From contig JACPSL010000004.1 of assembly GCA_016193285.1 (NCBI GenBank), forward strand, positions 1 to 40,080: 40,080 nt of DNA. Reading direction: 5' to 3'. The translations under genes and the position numbers were made by a program. Of this stretch, positions 5,415-38,127 are shown piece after piece; the first letter of the stretch is position 1; each line of letters begins with the position of its first letter. The notes below the pieces were generated by a model. It ran no database searches, was not told where the DNA came from, and was given only the letters and a program-made list of their open reading frames with translations. This DNA comes from Candidatus Melainabacteria bacterium. GTDB lineage: Bacteria > Cyanobacteriota > Vampirovibrionia > 2-02-FULL-35-15.

Positions 5415-5981
5415 CTAAAAATCTTCCTCACTAAAAGTAACCACTGACAAAGTATCAGTTTCTCTTAGTTTCAATCCATATGGCTCAATTGTCTCTTTAG
5501 CATTTAGAGAGTTTTGCTTTAAGAGAGTTTCCCAAAGAAGAGCAAAATGCTCATTCCTATAGGTAGCTTCACCACCAGGTTTAATGCGTATAAGTTTTAT
5601 AGAATCATTAAAATTAGGATCCAAGATGAAAAAATAATAATCAAACTTGTTTTCTTTTGGATCTTGTAAGATTGAAGTTATTTCTAGTGTTAAAAATCCA
5701 GGAACTGGAACTTTATTTCTCCCATTTTGTGGAGTGTCTTTTGTATACCATTTTGCAACTTCATATCTTACTGGTATGTGTTTTGTTGGGTGAGTTAATT
5801 CTTTTCCAACAACACTTTGAAGTATTGTCATAACTGCATGCAGAGCAGTCTCATTTGGTGCTGATATTTTATCTTGAATGTTTGCTATTTGTGCTTGAGT
5901 TGAAATAGCATTTTTTTCTTGAGGAGTACGAGCTGTTCCTAATGAAAACGGAAGTAACCCACTAAGTCCCATGAATCCCAT
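5415..5981 (-). CDS. Unknown 188-residue protein
   Basis: No family recognised. The ATG is preceded by AAAGGA about 7 nt upstream, supporting the start. The N-terminus MGFMGLSGLLPFSLG is mildly hydrophobic but not a convincing signal peptide. The rest is soluble, with beta-rich segments (VPVPGFLTLEITSI, DYYFFILDP, IKLIRIKPGG) and an acidic end. It stands alone between the AbiE pair and rarA, both in the same direction, with gaps of about 70 nt on each side. Confidence 0.7.
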   Translation of the reverse strand: MGFMGLSGLLPFSLGTARTPQEKNAISTQAQIANIQDKISAPNETALHAVMTILQSVVGKELTHPTKHIPVRYEVAKWYTKDTPQNGRNKVPVPGFLTLEITSILQDPKENKFDYYFFILDPNFNDSIKLIRIKPGGEATYRNEHFALLWETLLKQNSLNAKETIEPYGLKLRETDTLSVVTFSEEDF

Positions 5982-6058
5982 AATTATTTCCTTTATTTTT
6001 TAATTGGTTTGATTATATCATGCCGTATTAAAAAAAATTGTATGAAATGTATGAAACA

Positions 6059-8427: not shown

Positions 8428-9108
8428 CTATAAAGCTTCAAAAGCTTTTTTAATTTCTTGTATATCTTTCCACATAAGTGATTTAGGTGAATCAGGTTTT
8501 GTATTCCATTCATGACGAAGTAAATAAGATGGATGAAATATTGGTATTAGTTTCCTGCCTTTAAGAAGTGTTCCTTGACCTTCTATCCATTCACCTCTTA
8601 TTTTTGTAATTTTTGGATCTTTTATTTTTAAGATTCCTTTTACTGCAACTGCTCCAGCCAGAATAATGATTTTTGGATCTGTATATTTTATTTGTGCTTC
8701 TAAATATTCCCAGCATGCATCAGCTTCTTCATCAAGTGGGGCACGATTATTTGGCGGACGGCATTTTACAATATTGCAAATATACAAATGTTCTTGCCTG
8801 TTTAAATCAACCGAAGCAAAAATTTTATCTAAAAGCTGTCCAGCTCTTCCTACAAATGGTAATCCTTGTAAATCTTCGTTTTCTCCAGGCCCTTCCCCTA
8901 CTATCATTATTTTTGCTTTTTCATTTCCATCGCTAAAAACAACTCTTGTTCTACCTTTACAAAGAGCACACTTGGTACATTTCATTGCTTCGACTTTAGC
9001 TTCTTCTAGGGAATTATATTTTGTTTCAACTGCTGAGTGCTGAGTGCTGAGTGCTGAGTGCTCTGAACTCTCTTCCTTTATGCTAAACAAATTCAACTGC
9101 ATTTCCAT
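8428..9108 (-). CDS. Family 4 uracil-DNA glycosylase (4Fe-4S)
   Basis: Removes uracil from DNA. The iron-sulfur ligands expected for family 4 are present: CTKC at residues 44-47, Cys116 in VKCRPPNNR and Cys132. Motif GEGPGENEDLQGLPFVGRAG (71-90) binds uracil and HPSYLLRH is the C-terminal active-site motif. AGGGAGG about 12 nt upstream supports the ATG. Unusual: residues 16-26 (EHSALSTQHSA) are encoded by four tandem copies of a 7-bp repeat, in the variable N-terminal extension before the first cysteine, so the enzyme should tolerate it. It is convergent with lpxB. Confidence 0.92.
   Translation of the reverse strand: MEMQLNLFSIKEESSEHSALSTQHSAVETKYNSLEEAKVEAMKCTKCALCKGRTRVVFSDGNEKAKIMIVGEGPGENEDLQGLPFVGRAGQLLDKIFASVDLNRQEHLYICNIVKCRPPNNRAPLDEEADACWEYLEAQIKYTDPKIIILAGAVAVKGILKIKDPKITKIRGEWIEGQGTLLKGRKLIPIFHPSYLLRHEWNTKPDSPKSLMWKDIQEIKKAFEAL
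8432..8451 (+). terminator. Rho-independent terminator of lpxB
   Basis: A 7-bp stem AAAGCTT/AAGCTTT with loop CAA is followed directly by more T residues, 10 nt after the lpxB stop. It lies within the last codons of the convergent udg gene. Confidence 0.6.
9031..9058. repeat. Four tandem copies of a 7-bp repeat (TGCTGAG)
   Basis: Four perfect TGCTGAG units, followed by a partial unit. They lie in frame in the N-terminal part of udg and code for HSALSTQHSA on the minus strand. An identical array with four units is found at 32861-32888 in ldpA. Tandem heptamers of this kind are known from cyanobacterial genomes. Confidence 0.9.
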
Positions 9109-26739: not shown

Positions 26740-27549
26740 ATGGTACAAAAAGTAAAAGAAGGAAAAGTATCCTTTTTTGTAGATGAATCTGGTGACGCGG
26801 TTTTCTTTAACAAATATGGGAAACTAATCGTTGGTCAAGAAGGTTGCTCTAAGATACTGCTCATAGGTTTTATTGAAACTACTAAACCTAGTCTAATTAG
26901 ATGCTCAATAACAAATCTTTTGGAAGAAATAAAAAAAGATAGCTATCTTTCTATGTTTTGCTCTTTTAAAGAGACTATTAATAAAGGCTTTCATGCAAAA
27001 GATGACCGTCCAGAAATAAGAGAGCGGATGTTTAAATTAATAAAAGGACTGGATTTTAGATGTCAAATAATAATTGCCAGGAAAAATAAAGATAGATTTT
27101 TAAATAATAGATTTGAAGGTAAACCAGACAAGTTTTATGATTATCTCGTAACCAGGCTTTTTGAAAGAAGCTTACATAGATATACTGAAAATGACATATT
27201 TTTTAGCAAAAGAGGTTCTTCTGAAAGATTAGATCATTTAAGACATGCCATTAATCTTGCTGTTAGTAGCTTTAATCAAAAATGGAATGTCGAAAGCCAA
27301 GCTAAAATAAAAGTAACAATTCAAAAATCCTCACAGGAACCGTGCTTGCAAATTATTGATTATATGAACTGGGCAATTTATAGGGCTATTACAACAAATG
27401 ATTATAATTACCTTGAGTTTATAAAAGAAAAATATAGTTTAATTTGGGATATCTTTGATTCAAAAAATGCTGGAAAAGAAAACGGCTGGAAAAATATTTA
27501 CACAAAAGATAAAAATCCTTTTCATCCACAAAAGATGAGCCCCTTATAG
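26740..27549 (+). CDS. DUF3800-family protein
   Basis: VSFFVDESGDAVFF at residues 10-23 carries the DESGD signature of DUF3800, and later FHAKDDR and LQIIDYMNWAIYRAI complete the usual acidic positions. The family is predicted to be metal-dependent and RNase H-like but its role is not established. At 269 residues it looks complete. TATAAT lies 10 nt before the ATG within TATAATTAACTGAA, a string shared with the AbiEi promoter; no ribosome site. The stop codon is the end of the left arm of a long inverted repeat. Confidence 0.8.
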   Translation: MVQKVKEGKVSFFVDESGDAVFFNKYGKLIVGQEGCSKILLIGFIETTKPSLIRCSITNLLEEIKKDSYLSMFCSFKETINKGFHAKDDRPEIRERMFKLIKGLDFRCQIIIARKNKDRFLNNRFEGKPDKFYDYLVTRLFERSLHRYTENDIFFSKRGSSERLDHLRHAINLAVSSFNQKWNVESQAKIKVTIQKSSQEPCLQIIDYMNWAIYRAITTNDYNYLEFIKEKYSLIWDIFDSKNAGKENGWKNIYTKDKNPFHPQKMSPL

Positions 27550-27605
27550 CTAGGATTAACTGAATAATCTCAAGGCATGAAGCCTGCTTTCACTATAAGG
27601 GGCTC
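27537..27605 (+). ncRNA. Possible structured RNA (three-way junction) at the 3' end of the DUF3800 gene
   Basis: Perfect 13-bp arms GAGCCCCTTATAG (27537-27549) and CTATAAGGGGCTC (27593-27605) enclose two smaller hairpins: GATTA/TAATC with a 6-nt loop (27554-27569) and AGGC/GCCT with a 5-nt loop (27573-27585). As RNA this would be a three-way junction. The left arm contains the last codons of the gene. There is no T-tract after it, so it is not a standard terminator. It may be a 3'-UTR element, a processed small RNA or part of a mobile element. Confidence 0.4.
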
Positions 27606-27760
27606 TAAAACATTTATTGTAGACGAAGTATACACTTAAAGTATACCCACATTACATTAATCTTAATTTAAACGCATAATTTTAGCTTATTTTGCAGTAA
27701 AAATACAATGCAGACTTTACATCCTTAGTTTAAATCGTAAATTATCCTCCATAAGGGTAT

Positions 27761-33063: not shown

Positions 33064-34349
33064 TTTTCATTTCCTGGTACGTTTAATGCATAACCTGGAG
33101 GACATGGTGCATTTATTTCACATTCATATTCGATGTTTTTGTTTTTTTGGAACCCTAACATAAATGCTTCACGAGGAGATAATTTTAAATTATTGATTTG
33201 TGGTTTAATTATTGATTTTTCTGTAGGGACGTTGCGCGCAACGTCTCTACAACACGATATTTCATTGATTGCATTAATTAATTTATCTTTTATTTCCTCA
33301 TTAAAATTCATTCCAATTGAAATTAAAAAACCAATATCATTTGCGCTTTCTATTTCTATGGAATGATTATTATAAAGATGATATGCAAAATCTATTCCTG
33401 ACATTTTATTTGGTTTTATATACACCTTAAAAGGATCTTGATTTTTAAATATTTCTATTTCTGGAATTTGCTTTAAAGAGATTGTAAAAAGAGTTAATGG
33501 TTTTCTTATCTTATTAAAAAGTAGGGACGTTGCATGCAACGTCCCTACAAGATATTTTCTTGTAAGTTCTAAAGAAAGTAAAAGTATAAAAGACGGACTA
33601 GTTGAACTAACAAGCTCTAAAGACCTTTTAATATCGCGGTAAGAAAAAAAATTATTATTAATTAAATGCAAAACTCCTGTCTGGGTGAGACTCCCAAGTG
33701 ATTTATGCCATGATTGAATTACAAGGTCAGCACCTAGCGAAATTGCCGACGTACGCAAAAAAAATAAATGTGCTCCATGTGCTTCATCTACAACTAATGG
33801 AATATTTTTTATGTGGCAATTTTGTGCGATTAACTCTACATCTGAGATTACGCCTTCATATGTCGGAGATACAATAACACAACCAGCAATATCATTATGT
33901 TTTGATGTGATCTCAAACAATTTGTTTGGATCAACTTTTGAAAAAATACCCCACTTATCTAGAAACTCTACATCTAACCAGACAGGTTCAAGTCCAGCTA
34001 AAATCACACCATTAATTATTGATTTGTGAACATTTCTTGCAAGAATAACTTTCTTGCCAAATTTATTTAATGCAACCATACTAGCAATTAATCCAATACT
34101 TGCACCACTAGTTAAATAAAACGAGTGTTCTACATTGAAGAAATTGGCAGTAATCTTTTCAGATTGGAATATTGGATTGTCTTCACCGTGAGTATCATAA
34201 CCACTAACTTCAGAGATATCTAAGTTATAAAGTTCTTTAGGAAGAATATCATTGTTTGAAACTCCACCATGAAACGGAACATGCATGCGAATTGGATTTT
34301 TAGAAAGGTAGTCTTCGAGGGTGTTTAGGATGGGGGTTTCATTTTTCAT
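33060..34349 (-). CDS. Orn/Lys/Arg decarboxylase-family PLP enzyme
   Basis: Fold-type I PLP enzyme of the basic amino-acid decarboxylase family. The N-terminus RMHVPFHGGV is the family's HMPGHKG-type motif in changed form; YLTSGASIGLIA, VVDEAHGAHLFF (PLP Asp and His) and the Schiff-base Lys in SWHKSLGSLTQTG are clear. 429 residues is the short cyanobacterial-type form. Two palindromic repeats add VGTLHATSLL and SCCRDVARNVPT. Substrate cannot be read from sequence; speE nearby makes a polyamine role plausible. TAGAAT lies 8 nt before the ATG, without a ribosome site. First gene of the ldpA-R3H operon. Confidence 0.88.
   Translation of the reverse strand: MKNETPILNTLEDYLSKNPIRMHVPFHGGVSNNDILPKELYNLDISEVSGYDTHGEDNPIFQSEKITANFFNVEHSFYLTSGASIGLIASMVALNKFGKKVILARNVHKSIINGVILAGLEPVWLDVEFLDKWGIFSKVDPNKLFEITSKHNDIAGCVIVSPTYEGVISDVELIAQNCHIKNIPLVVDEAHGAHLFFLRTSAISLGADLVIQSWHKSLGSLTQTGVLHLINNNFFSYRDIKRSLELVSSTSPSFILLLSLELTRKYLVGTLHATSLLFNKIRKPLTLFTISLKQIPEIEIFKNQDPFKVYIKPNKMSGIDFAYHLYNNHSIEIESANDIGFLISIGMNFNEEIKDKLINAINEISCCRDVARNVPTEKSIIKPQINNLKLSPREAFMLGFQKNKNIEYECEINAPCPPGYALNVPGNEK
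33223..33250. repeat. Palindromic repeat in decarboxylase gene (3' part)
   Basis: GTAGGGACGTTGC, GC centre, GCAACGTCTCTAC; one arm mismatch. In frame between core and C-terminal tail. Confidence 0.9.
33521..33548. repeat. Perfect 28-bp palindrome in decarboxylase gene
   Basis: Arms GTAGGGACGTTGCA and its exact complement. In frame, giving VGTLHATSL. Perfect arms suggest recent arrival or selection on pairing. Confidence 0.92.
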
Positions 34350-37497: not shown

Positions 37498-38127
37498 ATG
37501 GCTGATAAAAAGAAAAAACTTGCTGTTTTAGTCTCAGGTTCAGGTACTAATTTACAAGCAATAATAAATGCAGTTAAGAGTGGTGAATTAGAAGATACTA
37601 AAATCTCTATAGTAATTTCAAATAAACAGGATGCTTATGCTTTAAAACGTGCAGAGAATGAAAACATTGAAAATATTTTCTTAAATCCAAAAGATTTTAA
37701 AACTAATATAGCTTTTGACAAAAAATTAGTAGAAATAATTAGTAGCTATGAAATAGATTTAATTGTTTTAGCTGGTTATACAAAAATTCTTACAGAAGTT
37801 TTTGTAAATGCATTTCCTAAGAAAATTATTAATATACATCCTGCTTTACTCCCAGATTTTGGTGGTAAAGGAATGTACGGGAAATATGTCCATGAAGCAG
37901 TTTTAAAAAGTAGGGTTAAACAAAGTGGATGTACAGTACATTTTGTTACAAGTGATGTTGATGCTGGCCCAATTATTCTTCAAAAAAAAGTACCAGTATT
38001 AGATAGTGACACTGCTGAAACTTTGTCACATAGAATATTAGAAGAAGAACATAAATTGTTGGTTGAGGCAATTAGAAAGATTTTGTTTGAATGTAGAGAC
38101 GCGGTTAACCGCGTCTCTACTATATAA
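37498..38127 (+). CDS. purN: Phosphoribosylglycinamide formyltransferase
   Basis: Third step of purine synthesis, formyl-THF dependent. AVLVSGSGTNLQAII at the start binds the ribonucleotide phosphate; catalytic Asn-His-Asp are in INIHPALLPDF and SDVDAGPIILQ; GCTVHFV is conserved. The last ten residues, RDAVNRVSTI, and the stop codon come from a palindromic repeat (38093-38120) that replaced the natural end. At 209 residues the fold is otherwise complete. Confidence 0.94.
   Translation: MADKKKKLAVLVSGSGTNLQAIINAVKSGELEDTKISIVISNKQDAYALKRAENENIENIFLNPKDFKTNIAFDKKLVEIISSYEIDLIVLAGYTKILTEVFVNAFPKKIINIHPALLPDFGGKGMYGKYVHEAVLKSRVKQSGCTVHFVTSDVDAGPIILQKKVPVLDSDTAETLSHRILEEEHKLLVEAIRKILFECRDAVNRVSTI
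38093..38120. repeat. Perfect 28-bp palindrome forming the end of purN
   Basis: GTAGAGACGCGGTT and its exact complement. The reading frame crosses it and stops at TAA 5 nt later. Confidence 0.92.

Follow-up and report, generated by a model that had tools for sequence, protein, structure and literature searches.

A structured RNA overlaps the stop codon of a DUF3800 gene in a genome of Candidatus Melainabacteria (contig JACPSL010000004.1; the window analysed is a stretch of 40,080 bases), and sequence comparison shows that its three-way junction, its position on the stop codon and its linkage to DUF3800 are conserved in four lineages. The best reading of these data is that the RNA represents a new family of DUF3800-associated small RNAs (sRNAs), acting as the partner, perhaps the antitoxin, of a nuclease. 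We are fairly confident that a separate sRNA gene on the minus strand converges with DUF3800 and that its product binds the RNase H2-like protein, most likely as an antitoxin; RNA and protein probably work together.

Structure and position of the element

The DUF3800 gene of the window occupies positions 26740–27549 of the plus strand and encodes 269 amino acids (Pfam PF12686, E 5.9e-9). Its stop codon, TAG, lies at 27547–27549, exactly where the left arm of a 13-bp outer stem terminates; the stem is formed by perfect complementarity between GAGCCCCTTATAG (27537–27549) and CTATAAGGGGCTC (27593–27605) and encloses two inner hairpins. This arrangement had been proposed in a preliminary description of the locus, and the same sequence and three-way-junction fold were recovered in our analysis. 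The accompanying claim that the element is too regular for chance was also substantiated: the computed fold reached -29.2 kcal/mol on the plus strand (z -4.40) and -30.3 kcal/mol on the minus strand (z -4.63), with 0 of 200 shuffles as stable in either case. Among the 12 perfect inverted repeats of at least 11 bp in the window with arms less than 120 nt apart, three are 13 bp long; the DUF3800 stem has a G+C count of 7, and the other two have only 1 each. Elsewhere in the window, two similar, REP-like palindromes beginning GTAG(G/A)GACG were observed at 33521–33548 and 38093–38120.

On the minus strand, the putative sRNA gene spans 27526–27611, as defined by a covariance model match (model R2, 73.8 bits; locus L060), by covariation and by the strand evidence given below, and the last five codons of DUF3800 (K-M-S-P-L) and its stop codon fall inside it. 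Because the coding end overlaps the RNA, the proteins of the family end in K(I/M)(S/N)PL or a similar sequence. The following features were assigned from the computed fold and the alignments: (i) the outer stem P1, with its 5' arm at 27593–27605 and its 3' arm, which overlaps the stop codon, at 27537–27549; (ii) a junction strand UGAAAGC (27586–27592), in which GAA and the next G show little or no variation among 32 RNAs (columns 26–30 of alignment A9); (iii) a hairpin AGGC-UUCAU-GCCU (27573–27585), with covariation; (iv) a variable hairpin (27553–27570), in which compensatory changes are strongest; and (v) the segment CUAGC (27549–27553), of which CUAG is invariant in 32 of 32 RNAs. The fixed unpaired bases among the 32 aligned members include GAA.G, CUAG and, in the UUCAU loop, the C. 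P1 covaries as well, a signal that depends in part on model-fitted alignments.

Coding strand of the RNA

The preliminary description regarded the RNA as the 3' part of the DUF3800 transcript, a view that the data do not support: wobble pairs, promoters and U-tracts favour a separate gene on the opposite strand. The RNA was placed on the minus strand because G-U pairs outnumber A-C mismatches only there, and because promoters and U-tracts point the same way. On the plus strand, 31 A-C cells were counted vs 14 G-U cells. The minus-strand counts were 28 G-U vs 3 A-C cells in the unfitted alignment (16 of 18 rows, the window and its close copy in genome G007 being omitted as they are shifted by one column), 30 vs 9 when all 18 unfitted rows were included, and 42 vs 24 in the fitted alignment of 32 members. 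Comparison of flanks across loci revealed TTGACA/TATAAT-like pairs downstream of the element in reverse orientation, and a T-rich box past the outer stem on the minus strand; many members have a sigma-70-like promoter ahead of the RNA. When scored against shuffles that preserve base composition only, promoter-like sites at p<=0.05 were present on the RNA strand in 15 of 37 non-duplicate loci and on the other strand in 0 of 37, and a T-run of at least 4 was present in 31 of 37 and 5 of 37, respectively. These statistics cover 37 of the 41 loci described below because duplicates were removed (the RNAs of L051–L053 are identical, and L075/L076 and L077/L078 are near-duplicates). Across the family, the evidence strongly indicates a minus-strand gene with a promoter and a terminator of its own.

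In the window itself, a candidate -10 box TACAAT with a weak -35 lies at 27616–27621, where G007 has TATAAT. By shuffling, no minus-strand promoter in the window scores better than ordinary (p 0.62), and a consensus scan of the minus strand at the RNA called neither a promoter nor a terminator. The missing T-tract noted in the preliminary description is borne out on the plus strand but not on the minus strand, where ATCTTTTG trails the outer stem; a terminator-like U-rich tract, ATCTTTT, follows P1 at 27530–27536, an assignment that draws on the T-run statistics across members. The notion of a chance terminator was rejected, as the terminator scan calls none. Two GTATAC palindromes, 13 nt apart, can be read from the letters just upstream of the minus-strand gene (27628–27646) and are possibly, though speculatively, a candidate operator.

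Distribution and covariation of the family

The element is single-copy in its own genome, and members of the family occur as a rule once per genome. A search of 97 related genomes yielded one other strong match, in G007, from another genus of the same family (97.8% identity over 92 bp); no DUF3800 was detected in the G007 genome at E 0.001, and the copy is flanked by a Fic gene and by a gene resembling AbiEi, the latter at an E of 8e-4 that falls short of the Pfam cut-off. Of 382 genomes in the class, two carry the exact-stem pattern; none of the viral contigs does. With the element as a DNA query, plasmids gave no match and the best hit among phage records was an unconvincing 26 bp (E 0.3); a MITE or dispersed repeat was rejected on these grounds and on the single copy in the own genome. 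An integron attC site, the core consensus of which is RYYYAAC/GTTRRRY, came into question in view of the position after a stop codon and the second copy in G007; it was rejected since the flanks, inspected by eye, do not contain this core and covariation explains the structure better. The G007 genome also carries two compound palindromes with GCAAGC hairpins (L027:1882-1982 and 8563-8662), possibly from a dispersed repeat family.

In three distant homologs of the window protein (45–47% identical to it), one each from a Roizmanbacteria, a Parcubacteria and a Candidatus Aquidulcis genome, the stop codon lies in the same junction, although the stems differ in sequence, and the same holds for the DUF3800 stop in genomes G033 and G023 and in one IMG/VR contig. 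The preliminary description had proposed comparing the 3' ends of homologs, and the junction is indeed present in other phyla with compensating changes. Seven of seven close homologs found through protein searches have retained the RNA; it was not found at two weak homologs (G074 and G044).

A covariance model, R1, was built on the plus strand from eight copies, an orientation since abandoned on the strand evidence. Run over genomes, it gave matches in 8 of 8 selected ones; in larger sets, R1 matched 7 of 332 genomes from the phylum to which the Parcubacteria genome belongs, 7 of 350 from that of the Aquidulcis genome and 6 of 365 from the window's own class. After removal of L043 (E 0.02, no DUF3800, rRNA-like letters by eye), the R1 set comprised 24 loci, 16 of them outside the training set; a DUF3800 ORF ends inside the RNA in 19 of the 24 and in 12 of these 16. 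In the fitted plus-strand alignment (22 distinct rows), 83.5% of cells were paired vs 65.3% after shuffling, with both-sided changes in 20 of 22 pairs; RNAalifold, unaided, recovered the two inner hairpins and missed the outer stem. The minus-strand model R2 recovered 20 of the 24 R1 loci at 64 bits or more and the divergent L039–L042 at 22 to 39 bits, and it matched 18 of 329 genomes in the own phylum. These provided 17 new loci in the cyanobacterial phylum, L073 (a 40-nt hairpin) having been dropped; an opposite-strand DUF3800 ends in the RNA in 10 of them, and an eleventh has a C-terminal remnant. A second, weaker RNA-model match (22.6 bits) was observed upstream of a split DUF3800 on an Annamia plasmid (L082:3259-3355).

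Overall, 41 loci were obtained in four lineages, which we infer to be Patescibacteria, Chloroflexota, Vampirovibrionia and cyanobacteria, and a DUF3800 gene, intact or broken, ends within the RNA in 29. The other 12 have no full DUF3800 ending there (one holds a C-terminal remnant and one a 39-aa scrap). Occurrence of the element away from DUF3800 had been named beforehand as evidence against the association; such RNA-only copies do exist, in G007 and elsewhere, but the association stands despite them because of the 29 linked loci. In the unfitted alignment of 18 minus-strand members, 88.8% of cells were paired vs 72.1% after shuffling, and the covariation score was 0.497 vs 0.185 for shuffled and at most 0.129 for slid versions. 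The fitted alignment of 32 minus-strand members had 90.6% of cells paired and both-sided changes in 20 of 21 pairs. R2 gave weak opposite-strand echoes in L051–L053, and a 140-column fit (A8) was left out because of such echoes.

The DUF3800 protein

An AlphaFold2 model of the window protein, built with 15 homologs, was obtained at pLDDT 86.6 and pTM 0.87. Its best Foldseek matches were RNase HII/H2 (E 4.4e-5 to 6.7e-5), and superposition on RNase HII 1eke_A gave Z 10.8 and an rmsd of 3.3 over 162 residues. The earlier suggestion of an RNase H-like protein is thereby borne out by a predicted model, and the protein is predicted to have an RNase H2-like fold while differing from RNase HII/H2 in family (about 10% identity). 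Argonaute PIWI domains were the next structural matches (Z about 8) and may reflect only the common RNase H fold. Eight residues are invariant across the 15 homologs (D15, E16, D19, H85, D89, D207, D237 and D240); by aligned ranges, D15-E16 lie near what we take to be the first acidic pair of RNase HII, and the catalytic set of that enzyme is matched only partly by position. A sequence search of the PDB returned no relative of the window protein, and a search of plasmids and phages with it gave no match at E 1e-10. The DUF3800 proteins linked to the RNA are 255–280 aa long. According to passages of one study, a model of another DUF3800 was likewise judged RNase H-like, with rearranged catalysis, and DUF3800 is linked to putative non-coding RNAs (PMC10910872).

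Gene decay and neighbourhoods

The DUF3800 ORF is in pieces in L042, L051, L052, L056, L071 and L072, although faulty assembly may account for some of the frameshifts seen in draft genomes; L065 holds a remnant, L050 the 39-aa scrap (E 0.007), and broken genes or remnants with the RNA retained also occur in L082, on an Annamia plasmid, and in L083. Outside the 41 loci, two cyanobacterial plasmids show this state: pANN4383.04 of Annamia dubia has the RNA and a split DUF3800, and pGM3709_02 of Geminocystis has the RNA and a C-terminal DUF3800 scrap beside a type I restriction gene. Solitary copies of the RNA lie near Fic, AbiEi-like, zeta and PIN-like genes (the last identified by eye, as were all convergent ORFs at solitary copies). 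In one near-duplicate pair of loci (L077:493-918 and L078:1071-1496), a PIN-like gene, VapC-type by eye, stands in the place of DUF3800, converging with the solitary RNA and ending 5 nt from it. Defence neighbours are hsdM/hsdS-like frames in L042 (by eye), the type I restriction gene in Geminocystis and Mrr in L058.

The RNA often outlives a broken or lost DUF3800, whereas the close homologs of the gene have all kept the RNA; this is suggestive and is what would be expected if the RNA gave protection from the protein. The asymmetry falls short of proof, since the search that turned up most loci used the RNA and so favours intact RNAs.

The pair also occurs on a temperate phage: a phage-like contig with replication O-like, exonuclease and integrase genes carries a divergent DUF3800 followed by the convergent RNA (L079:9022-9920). 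This gene was missed by the profile search and detected by Pfam as divergent; other seemingly solitary RNAs could hide such relatives. On the viral contigs L080 and L081, the RNA was present and no DUF3800 was found, L080 extending only 232 bases beyond the RNA. In G033 and G023, a gene for an XerC/D-like tyrosine recombinase lies directly upstream of DUF3800 (L018:361-1476 and the minus strand of L019), a neighbourhood that suggests a mobile unit.

Comparison with known systems

At gathering score, no Rfam family matches anywhere in the window, and even at E 10 the Rfam DUF3800 families give nothing in 27480–27680, where the gathering cut-off is far exceeded in leniency. At the same cut-off, none of these families overlaps the RNA in L018, L022–L024, 20 further loci and 16 loci of the cyanobacterial phylum, and at E 10 none matches the RNA in three members, one of them from the cyanobacterial phylum. 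Among the papers listed in a full-text search on DUF3800, none described this RNA. The Rfam DUF3800-associated RNAs (DUF3800-I and others, including DUF3800-V, RF02964), reportedly described by Weinberg in 2017, are likewise structured sRNAs linked to DUF3800; they differ in sequence and junction, and the present RNA overlaps the stop codon. Linkage in 29 of the 41 loci found by the RNA and in 7 of 7 homologs found by the protein places it among DUF3800-associated sRNAs as a kind. DUF3800-V likewise follows a DUF3800 gene on the antisense strand in L049 and L024. The divergent DUF3800 of L049 (1665-2564) has the antisense DUF3800-V about 55 nt past its stop and a copy of the present RNA just upstream; in L024, DUF3800-V (5871-5985, minus strand) lies about 30 nt beyond the present RNA, with an RVT_1 gene about 4 kb further.

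The window protein matches the PADLOC profile DUF3800_VII, the effector of type VII retrons (RT-DUF3800), at E 7.3e-27; however, no RVT_1 reverse transcriptase was found in the genome of the window or in G007, and among 14 genomes the nearest RVT_1 on the contig of the RNA was about 4.5 kb (G384) or 7.5 kb (G559, fragments) away. A retron was rejected, as no reverse transcriptase stands beside the RNA and DUF3800. The AbiF/RCd22 system, as presented in parts of one report, resembles the present pair in that a defence-type protein has a conserved RNA motif nearby, and its abiF RNA neutralises AbiF by direct binding; that RNA precedes its gene and has two repeats, whereas the present one is a single unit, convergent and downstream (PMC12373285). 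Type III toxin-antitoxin RNAs are tandem repeats upstream on the same strand, in contrast to the single downstream unit on the opposite strand found here. Convergent type I systems share the antisense overlap, seen here at the DUF3800 3' end at the DNA level, but encode a small hydrophobic peptide toxin in place of a 269-aa RNase H2-like protein. OMEGA RNAs (TnpB/IscB) are sense-strand RNAs with a guide at the ORF end, from which the present RNA departs on the strand evidence.

Proposed role of the RNA and alternatives

In the mechanism that we propose, a three-way-junction RNA of about 70–85 nt would be transcribed on the minus strand (about 27526–27611) from its own promoter and ended by the closing stem and U-tract. 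It would bind the RNase H2-like DUF3800 protein as an obligate partner and, as an antitoxin, most likely restrain the nuclease in a defence or toxin-antitoxin-like pair; base pairing between the RNA and the DUF3800 mRNA, at the 3' end of the latter, may occur as well. The sign of its effect is the least certain element, and inhibition is favoured because of the decay pattern, the defence neighbours and the AbiF precedent.

Instead of inhibiting the nuclease, the RNA could serve as a cofactor or guide scaffold without which the protein does not cut, a possibility that we hold only tentatively. The predicted fold, RNase H2-like and next closest to Argonaute PIWI domains, would suit such a role, as would the deep conservation of the unpaired GAA.G, UUCAU and CUAGC, and DUF3800 accompanies some CRISPR class 2 loci according to passages of two papers (PMC10910872, PMC12669027). 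However, there is no evident variable guide segment, the flanks resembling a promoter and a terminator with no spacer; a cofactor would not explain RNA copies that survive loss of the gene, and the catalytic set is matched by position only in part. Simple cis-antisense repression, in which the RNA pairs with the 3' end of the DUF3800 message as in convergent type I toxin-antitoxin systems, would account for the convergent stop-codon overlap in DUF3800-linked loci. We consider it unlikely, as pairing needs no fold, yet the helices covary and the junction bases are fixed across phyla, and a protein of 255–280 aa is no small peptide. A plus-strand RNA that forms the 3' end of the DUF3800 mRNA and is a ligand or substrate of the protein, in the manner of the omega RNA of TnpB, appears very improbable: the position at the ORF end and the about equally stable plus-strand fold would allow it, but A-C cells exceed G-U cells on that strand, and the promoters and U-tracts belong to the other. 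Finally, the idea that a mobile element or a site of recombination (MITE, attC-like) came to lie next to DUF3800 by chance can hardly be credited, for although the G007 copy is nearly identical in an unrelated context and a tyrosine recombinase gene adjoins DUF3800 in L018 and L019, there is usually one copy per genome, changes are compensatory and the place at the DUF3800 stop is constant across phyla.

Beyond the sRNA-antitoxin reading preferred here, a wider one may be entertained as a conjecture that we would not expect to hold in full: DUF3800 would be a broad class of RNase H2-like nucleases, each with a dedicated antisense-encoded sRNA, of which the present family (Patescibacteria, Chloroflexota, cyanobacteria and relatives, with plasmids and phage contigs) would be one RNA clan, the stand-alone RNAs serving as trans antitoxins or decoys.

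Significance

DUF3800 is found alongside several orphan RNA motifs as well as retrons and CRISPR class 2 loci, and we know of no agreed function for the DUF3800 protein–RNA pair. The present case also cautions that what is taken for the structured 3' end of an mRNA can turn out to be an antisense gene in its own right. The pair is compact: a single gene is matched with a single RNA of about 80 nt, the strand is likely, the junction bases are known, and copies of the RNA alone occur in nature. Because it is so compact and well defined, it can be tested directly whether the nuclease is restrained, guided or licensed by the RNA.
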